DNA of 64,000 nt from Anaeromyxobacter dehalogenans 2CP-1 (GTDB taxonomy: Bacteria; Myxococcota; Myxococcia; Myxococcales; Anaeromyxobacteraceae): assembly GCF_000022145.1 (NCBI RefSeq), contig NC_011891.1, positions 1,054,001 through 1,118,000 of the forward strand, written 5' to 3'. Shown here piece after piece: positions 5,972 to 8,135 of the stretch. The translations under genes and the position numbers were made by a program. How positions within the stretch are numbered: position 1 is the stretch's first letter; each line of letters opens with the position of its first letter. The notes beneath the pieces were generated by a model, which searched no databases, was not told the origin of the DNA, and was given only the letters and a program-made list of their open reading frames with translations.

Positions 5972-6478
5972 ATGCGGTTCTCGTTCGTTCCGCTGGGAGC
6001 GTCCGCAGTCGCTGCGCTGCTGCTCTGGTCCGGGGATGCGACGGCGCGGGAGAAGTTCCGGCCGGACGGCGCCAGCCGTTCGGATCCGGTGGCCGACCGC
6101 GCCGGGCGTGCGGCGCCGGCCGATCCCGGGGTGCCGTCCGTGCGCGAGCCGCTCGCCGGCGACGCGCAGGGCGAGGCGCCCGCCGACGACCGCGCCGGCG
6201 AGCAGGGAGAGCAGAACGGCGTCGGCCACCACAACGGCGGCGACCACGGCAGCGGCGTCGGCCAGGGCAACGACGGCACCCAGGGGACCGGCGGTGGATG
6301 GGGCTCCGGCGGGGTCGGCGGCGTCGACGTGGGCGGCGGCAACGCGGGCGCCGGCCACGGCGGCGGCGGGGAGTCGGGCGGCATCGGCGTCCCCGAGCTC
6401 GATCCGTCCGCGGCGGGCGTGATCGCCGCCCTGGTCGCCGGCGGCGGCATCCTGCTGGCGCGCCGCCGTCGCCGCTGA
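5972..6478 (+). CDS. VPEID-CTERM-like exosortase substrate
   Basis: A 168-residue exported protein: a signal peptide at about 1-25 (LGASAVAALLLWSGDATA), a polar region, then a Gly/His/Asn-rich middle (about 70-135). It ends in a tripartite sorting tail from about residue 139: VPELD, a hydrophobic helix (GVIAALVAGGGILL) and ARRRRR. That architecture is the VPEID-CTERM sorting signal recognised by exosortase E; here the motif reads VPELD. The exosortase/protease fusion gene starts 10 bases downstream, which strongly supports a dedicated enzyme-substrate pair. I chose the ATG at 5972 because it directly precedes the signal peptide. The role of the mature Gly-rich protein is unknown; it is probably displayed on the surface or released. 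Confidence 0.8.
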   Translation: MRFSFVPLGASAVAALLLWSGDATAREKFRPDGASRSDPVADRAGRAAPADPGVPSVREPLAGDAQGEAPADDRAGEQGEQNGVGHHNGGDHGSGVGQGNDGTQGTGGGWGSGGVGGVDVGGGNAGAGHGGGGESGGIGVPELDPSAAGVIAALVAGGGILLARRRRR

Positions 6479-6488
6479 GCACGGCCGC

Positions 6489-8135
6489 ATGAGCGCGGGC
6501 GCGGGCGTCGCCGCCAGGTCCTGCGGCCGCGGCCTGCGCGTCGCGCGGCTGCGGGGGGGCGTCCGATGGACGGTCCCGGCGGTGATCGTGGCCGCGGAGT
6601 ACCTCGGCCTGTCGCTGCTCGTCGACCTGCCCATGGCCGGCCCGGCCATGACGCTGGTCCGGCCCCTGCGCATGCTCGGGCCGGTGCTGTTCGGCGCCGC
6701 CGCCGCCGGCTGGCTCATCGCCCGCGGCGAGTCGCGCGGCGGAACGGGTGCGGCCCCGCTCCCGCCGCTGCCGGCCTGGCGGCCCTGGCCCACGCTCGCG
6801 CTCCAGGCCGGCGCCTACGCGGTCACCGCCGCGACGGCGGTGGCGCTCCTCCGCCCCGGCGCGCCCCCGCCGTCCCCCGCGGCCATGGCGGTGTTCATCG
6901 CCTGCGCGGCCGCCACGGGCCTGCTCGCCCTGCGCGCCGCCGCGCCGCTCGGGTGGCTGCTCGCCGCGCTGGCGCGGCGCTGGCTGGCGCCGCTGGTGGC
7001 GCTCTCGGTGGGGCTGCTCGCCTGGCGCGCGGCGTCGGCGGCGGAGGGGCTGTGGGGAGCGCTCACGGCGGTGACGCTGCACGCGGCCGGCGCGCTGGCG
7101 TCGGCGGCGGGCGCCGAGATCCAGGTGGACCCGGCCCGCAGCGTGATCCGGGCGAGCGGGGTGCGCATCGAGATCGCGCCCATCTGCTCCGGCGTGGACG
7201 GCATCGGCCTGGTGGTCCTGTTCCAGGCGGTCTGGATCGCGCTCGCGCGCGAGCGCATCCGGTGGGAGCGGGCCCTCGTCCTCCTGCCGCTCGGCGCCGC
7301 GGCCGCGCTCGCCGGCAACGTGCTGCGCGTCGCGGCCCTGACGCTGCTCGCGGCCGCGGGGCGCCCGGACCTCGCGTTCGGAGGCTTCCACTCCAAGCTC
7401 GGCTGGGCGTTCTTCATCGCCATCGCGCTCGGCAGCGTGGCCATCGCCGAGCGGTCGCGGTGGCTGGCTCGCCCCGCCGACGCGGAGGGCAGCGCGGCCG
7501 CCGGCGTCCCGCCCGGCGCGGGCGCGTACGCGGCGCCGTTCGTGGCCATGCTCGCGACCGCGCTCGTCACCTCGATGCTCGCGGGCGACGGCCTCGACCG
7601 GCTCTACGGGCTCCGCGTCGCCGCGGGCGCCGGCGTCCTGCTCGCGGTCCGCCGGCGGCTGCCGGTGGCGGTGCTCGCCCCGGCGCTGCTGCCGATCGCG
7701 GCCGGGCTCGCGGTGGGCGCCGCGTGGGTCGCGCTCGCCGGCGGCGACGGGACCGCCGTCTCCGAGGGGCTGGCGCGGATGGGCCCGGCGGAGCGCGCCG
7801 CGTGGATCTCGGCGCGGGTGGCCGGCGCTTGCCTGCTGGTGCCGGTGGTGGAGGAGCTCGCGTTCCGCGGGTTCCTGCTGCCCTGGCTGGTGTCGCCCGG
7901 CTTCCGGGACGTCCCGCCGCGCGCCTGGAGCTGGCCGGCGGCGCTCGGGTCCTCGCTCGCGTTCGGCGCCATCCACTCACAGTGGTTGCTCGGCGCGGCG
8001 GCCGGCCTGGCCTTCGCCGGCGTGCGCCGCTGGCGCGGCCGCCTCGGCGACGCCGTGCTGGCGCACGCGGTCGCGAACGCCGCCATCGCCGCCGCGGTGC
8101 TGGGCGCCGGACGCTGGGGGCTGTGGGGCGGCTGA
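6489..8135 (+). CDS. xrtE: Exosortase E/CPBP-protease fusion (VPEID-CTERM system)
   Basis: A 548-residue polytopic membrane enzyme with two domains. The N-terminal exosortase domain carries the transpeptidase triad: Cys233 in APICSGVDG, Arg280 in GNVLRVAAL and His301 in GGFHSKLGW. It cleaves the sorting tail and is expected to transfer the substrate. The C-terminal half is a CPBP/CAAX-type intramembrane protease with all motifs present: EELAFRG (Glu455-Glu456), FGAIHS, and HAVANA. Fusion of these two domains defines the exosortase E family. The substrate gene lies immediately upstream. The gene is convergent with the response regulator, with a 16-base gap. Confidence 0.88.
   Translation: MSAGAGVAARSCGRGLRVARLRGGVRWTVPAVIVAAEYLGLSLLVDLPMAGPAMTLVRPLRMLGPVLFGAAAAGWLIARGESRGGTGAAPLPPLPAWRPWPTLALQAGAYAVTAATAVALLRPGAPPPSPAAMAVFIACAAATGLLALRAAAPLGWLLAALARRWLAPLVALSVGLLAWRAASAAEGLWGALTAVTLHAAGALASAAGAEIQVDPARSVIRASGVRIEIAPICSGVDGIGLVVLFQAVWIALARERIRWERALVLLPLGAAAALAGNVLRVAALTLLAAAGRPDLAFGGFHSKLGWAFFIAIALGSVAIAERSRWLARPADAEGSAAAGVPPGAGAYAAPFVAMLATALVTSMLAGDGLDRLYGLRVAAGAGVLLAVRRRLPVAVLAPALLPIAAGLAVGAAWVALAGGDGTAVSEGLARMGPAERAAWISARVAGACLLVPVVEELAFRGFLLPWLVSPGFRDVPPRAWSWPAALGSSLAFGAIHSQWLLGAAAGLAFAGVRRWRGRLGDAVLAHAVANAAIAAAVLGAGRWGLWGG

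Follow-up and report, generated by a model that had tools for sequence, protein, structure and literature searches.

The window analysed here is a 64,000-nucleotide stretch of DNA (positions 1,054,001-1,118,000) from the one-contig, 5.03-Mb genome of Anaeromyxobacter dehalogenans 2CP-1. Near its beginning, the forward strand carries two adjacent genes: the first encodes a small precursor protein, here termed the cargo (5972..6478, +; ATG start, 168 aa), and the second a 548-aa exosortase E/CPBP-protease fusion, XrtE (6489..8135, +). The two are separated by an intergenic gap of 10 bp (6479..6488, +), and the coordinates given for genes and gap in the initial annotation proved to be right. The gap has the same length in two further genomes (G001 and G006), which suggests that cargo and xrtE may be co-transcribed and translationally coupled; a scan for promoters and terminators returned none and was uninformative. 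For the cargo, dN/dS between three strains is 0.27-0.39, as against 0.21-0.24 in xrtE; the cargo values, together with the constant 10-bp gap, identify the cargo as a true gene. Genes for MscS and TPR proteins lie upstream of the pair and those for a response regulator and a sensor kinase downstream, with no exopolysaccharide gene adjoining the pair in this genome. In a congener that does not possess XrtE (G005), the MscS-TPR genes are found at about 68-70% identity and are then followed by other genes.

The assignment of the second gene as an exosortase-CPBP fusion was borne out by profile searches: XrtE matches NCBIfam TIGR04162 with 196.2 bits (E 1.1e-57; curated cut-off 150) and exceeds the cut-offs of both PF09721 and PF02517, with a weak match to NF033192 in addition. 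The exosortase half exhibits the motifs Cys233-Ser-Gly235, Asn277-x-x-Arg280 and His301-x3-Gly305, corresponding to the C-x-G, N-x-x-R and H-x3-G residues that define EpsH-type exosortases (PMC1569441); Cys233 (codon 7185..7187, +) is the proposed nucleophile, acting with Arg280 and His301. The CPBP active-site region (7851..8078, +) comprises E455-E456-x3-R460, H496 and H526-x3-N530. All six catalytic motifs expected from the initial annotation are thus present, and their residues are invariant in all 15 XrtE proteins aligned, which come from Myxococcota and Alphaproteobacteria (Rhodobacterales), both in the exosortase half (C233, G235, N277, R280, H301, G305) and in the CPBP half (E455, E456, R460, H496, H526, N530). 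The enzyme shares 89% identity with its counterpart from Anaeromyxobacter sp. PSR-1 and 55% with that from A. oryzae; a tree of the 15 proteins resolved only an Anaeromyxobacteraceae-side group and a few pairs. Searches of the PDB with the sequence and with the 15-row profile gave nothing at E<=1, and an AlphaFold2 model built from three sequences (mean pLDDT 39) was too poor for use. A search of a literature library found no paper on XrtE or VPEID-CTERM.

The cargo consists of a signal peptide (about residues 1-25), a Gly-rich hydrophilic body of 114 residues and a C-terminal sorting tail. Glycine accounts for 37 of the body residues, alongside 10 Asp, 4 His, 4 Asn and no Cys: the earlier description of the cargo as Gly/His/Asn-rich therefore holds in a loose sense, His and Asn being few. 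The body taken alone is under purifying selection in the window lineage (dN/dS 0.22-0.38), and the cargo has no match in Pfam. A pattern search located the tail, VPELDPSAAGVIAALVAGGGILLARRRRR, at 6389..6475 (+; genome position 1060389). It begins at residue 140 with VPELD, continues with a hydrophobic helix and closes with RRRRR, and hence displays the tripartite form of a VPE-x-D-like motif, hydrophobic helix and basic C-terminus. Among the 513 stop-to-stop frames of at least 50 aa in the window, the cargo is the only one with a VPELD-type tail. The tail has no match to the PEP-CTERM model TIGR02595 at E<=1, and the cargo is absent from the matches to the VPEID-CTERM model TIGR04161 (cut-off 33 bits) at E<=10, as it is in hmmscan at E<=1.

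Across 195 Myxococcota genomes, XrtE (E<1e-25) was detected in 11. Ten of these also encode the tail (E<1e-3), compared with none of the 184 others (Fisher 6e-16), and the eleventh (G191) has a 60-aa protein with an MPEIS tail directly before the enzyme. Myxococcota with XrtE most often have a single tail per genome. Cargo and enzyme share a small locus in G001, G006, G018, G039, G040 (two loci), G140, G183 and G191; G039 encodes two tailed proteins, the second of them ending in a VPELD tail (L113), and in G040 two XrtE enzymes each adjoin a tailed protein of their own. One of the latter proteins (L102, G040:C242, 3-1235) is VWA-like, more than 400 aa long and TPELD-tailed, so that one XrtE lineage has a large target where others have tiny ones. 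In Rhodobacterales, small frames with VPEIS/VPEIG tails lie just upstream of the annotated xrtE in Rhodobacter sp. CZR27 and Salipiger sp. CCB-MM3; a small tailed frame was also looked for beside the Rhodovulum xrtE and was not found there. The preserved gap, the dN/dS values and the phylum-wide co-occurrence of tail and enzyme indicate that the association of xrtE and cargo is more than chance. The initial annotation had regarded a one-to-one pair as unusual, which we cannot uphold, given the prevalence of single tails in Myxococcota with XrtE and given that Haft and Varghese had already named single-target sorting enzymes "dedicated systems" in 2011 (PMC3237569): pairing with a cargo is ordinary for XrtE, and one-enzyme, one-target pairs were already known.

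The genomic surroundings of XrtE differ between relatives. In A. oryzae (G002), xrtE is part of an exopolysaccharide cluster, following a Poly_export/SLBB gene and preceding one that matches Wzy_C weakly, and its His/Gly-rich cargo of 83 aa (L082/L105, G002:C1:1686724-1686822) is encoded 2.47 Mb away; in G017, XrtE lies between glycosyltransferases with the cargo at a distance of 10 kb. Both contexts fit the usual linkage of exosortases with exopolysaccharide clusters (PMC1569441, PMC12188702), and the separation of the genes indicates that XrtE and cargo can work unlinked. The term "stand-alone", applied earlier to the system, consequently describes the strain group of the window, and it fails for A. 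oryzae and a sister genus, in which XrtE belongs to an exopolysaccharide cluster and its cargo is encoded elsewhere.

The VPE(L/F)D tails of Myxococcota fall outside TIGR04161, while their enzymes pass TIGR04162; the Rhodobacter target is also found just below the TIGR04161 cut-off (30.5 bits vs 33). The unrecognised tails thus represent a variant sorting signal as well as a gap in annotation, and could be added to the VPEID-CTERM model from the present alignment. Most of the precursors are very short, with lengths of 60 (G191), 61 (G017), 70 (G018), 77 (G183), 83 (A. oryzae), 89 (G040) and 107 aa (G039), and several of the tiny bodies are rich in His, Gly and Arg. When signal cleavage sites are placed by eye, about 2 residues are left before the motif in G191, about 10 in G017 and about 15 in G018. 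In the 60-aa neighbour of the G191 enzyme (MKLLIDRSVVFFTVLFSTGVAHAMMPEISPSS..., L101, G191:C16, ORF 1039-1245), MM stands before PEIS. It is conceivable, although we put this forward only as a speculative idea, that the Myxococcota XrtE is a module for peptide display and not for protein sorting. Its usual substrate would then be a micro-precursor with a mature part of between a few and about thirty residues, in many cases rich in His, Gly and Arg; the exosortase would transfer this part to a lipid or exopolysaccharide acceptor and the fused CPBP protease would complete release. Such tiny natural substrates are well suited to mass spectrometry, as the C-terminus created by cleavage would be directly visible, along with any attached group.

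Taken as a whole, the two genes very probably form a dedicated module for protein sorting, of the exosortase E type. How the cargo may be exported, cleaved and transferred, and what each of the two catalytic halves would do, can be pictured by analogy with exosortases (PMC1569441) and with the CPBP protease myxosortase, which has been demonstrated to cleave C-terminal tails (PMC11980579). Sec would export the cargo, with loss of the signal peptide, and the C-terminal hydrophobic helix would keep it anchored in the inner membrane, the Arg cluster lying on the cytoplasmic and VPELD on the periplasmic side. The exosortase half (Cys233/Arg280/His301) is predicted to attack at or near VPELD and cut off the helix, with the body probably being passed to an acceptor, perhaps a lipid or an exopolysaccharide precursor. 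The CPBP half (E455/E456, H496, H526/N530), as a glutamic intramembrane protease, would probably either contribute to this processing or clear away the remaining stub of the helix, and the Gly-rich, disordered-looking body would come to lie on the cell surface or within the exopolysaccharide layer. Cys lipidation, as proposed for MYXO-CTERM proteins, cannot apply here, since the cargo contains no Cys. Exosortase chemistry is poorly characterised, and a pair with only one target allows knock-out and complementation to be interpreted easily.

The claim that the cargo is the single substrate stood up to a genome-wide tail search, in which neither profile nor degenerate pattern found a second tail in the 5.03 Mb. 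A profile of four tails detected the cargo at E 1.5e-19, with the next match at E 0.7, and a six-row profile gave one match at E 0.05. The degenerate VP(E/D)xD...R-R pattern yielded 35 matches (10 forward, 25 reverse): at the 10 loci readable in frame, these were the cargo and nine sequences that bear no tail and continue as hydrophilic sequence, and inspection of the others by eye showed none with a hydrophobic helix leading into Arg and a stop. Matches to TIGR04161 elsewhere in the genome reached at best E 0.065 and were internal frames with no tail. As far as the sensitivity of these profiles and this pattern reaches, the predicted relation in this genome is therefore one enzyme, one target. 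Alternatively, XrtE could serve many proteins, the cargo being merely the closest of several targets with divergent tails. The profiles were built from 4-6 close tails and lose power on divergent ones (G183 was found at just 9e-4 and G191 was missed), such that divergent second targets could escape, and two relatives (G039, G040) have two tailed proteins each. Against this stand the large difference between the cargo and the next profile match, the hydrophilic continuation of all matches readable in frame and the presence of exactly one tail in each of the closest relatives, and we thus regard additional targets as unlikely.

A different enzyme could also process the cargo, either myxosortase (MrtX), treating it as a MYXO-CTERM protein, or a rhombosortase, leaving XrtE with another role. 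All such tails share the order of motif, helix and Arg; MrtX, accompanied by three to six MYXO-CTERM proteins, has been reported from Anaeromyxobacter (PMC11980579), as has a rhombosortase pair (PMC3237569), and the genome contains two further CPBP-type matches (G000:C1:1773667-1773933 and 1522804-1523094). However, MYXO-CTERM requires an invariant Cys (PMC11980579), which the mature cargo does not have, no GlyGly motif precedes the tail helix, neither model was matched, and the distribution of the tail follows XrtE rather than the phylum-wide MrtX. Processing by one of these enzymes hence seems highly improbable. A search of the genome with TIGR03901 gave no match at E 0.01, but as the control was equally silent, this does not speak for absence. 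Instead of being displayed, the small tailed protein could act on XrtE as its regulator, cofactor or partner in the membrane, a reading favoured by the near lack of sequence from signal peptide to motif in G191, G017 and G018, and by the tail being better conserved than the rest. It is nevertheless difficult to reconcile with a 114-residue body under purifying selection in the window lineage, with the VWA-like tailed protein of more than 400 aa in one relative and with the retention of the A. oryzae cargo 2.47 Mb from its enzyme, and we consider a partner role to be improbable, albeit less so than processing by another enzyme.

Comparison with known sorting systems shows shared as well as differing features of the dedicated XrtE module. 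With PEP-CTERM/EpsH (PMC1569441) it shares the C-x-G, N-x-x-R and H-x3-G motifs, the tripartite tail and, in relatives, the exopolysaccharide clusters; those systems, however, usually have many targets and no fused CPBP protease, and their model TIGR02595 does not match the cargo tail. MrtJ and MrtX (PMC11980579) exhibit a CPBP glutamic protease domain related to the C-terminal half of XrtE, and MrtJ/JDVT-CTERM likewise occurs as a two-gene enzyme-target unit, whilst both enzymes are devoid of an exosortase domain and depend on tails with a Cys that is absent from the cargo; MrtX, in addition, serves many targets. The adjacent rhombosortase/GlyGly-CTERM pair listed for Anaeromyxobacter dehalogenans 2CP-C and Anaeromyxobacter sp. 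K (Table 3 of PMC3237569) resembles the present one in combining one enzyme with one adjacent tripartite-tailed target in the same genus, although its enzyme is a rhomboid serine protease, its motif is another one and the families are unrelated. In case of the VPEID-CTERM system (TIGR04162/TIGR04161, Rhodobacterales xrtE), the Myxococcota tails differ in their VPE(L/F)D motif and helix, go unseen by TIGR04161 and are joined to bodies that contain no Cys; in spite of this, both comprise an exosortase-CPBP fusion scoring above the curated cut-off and a VPE-x-(D/S/G)-tailed target, which in CZR27 and CCB-MM3 is likewise a small protein encoded directly upstream of the enzyme.
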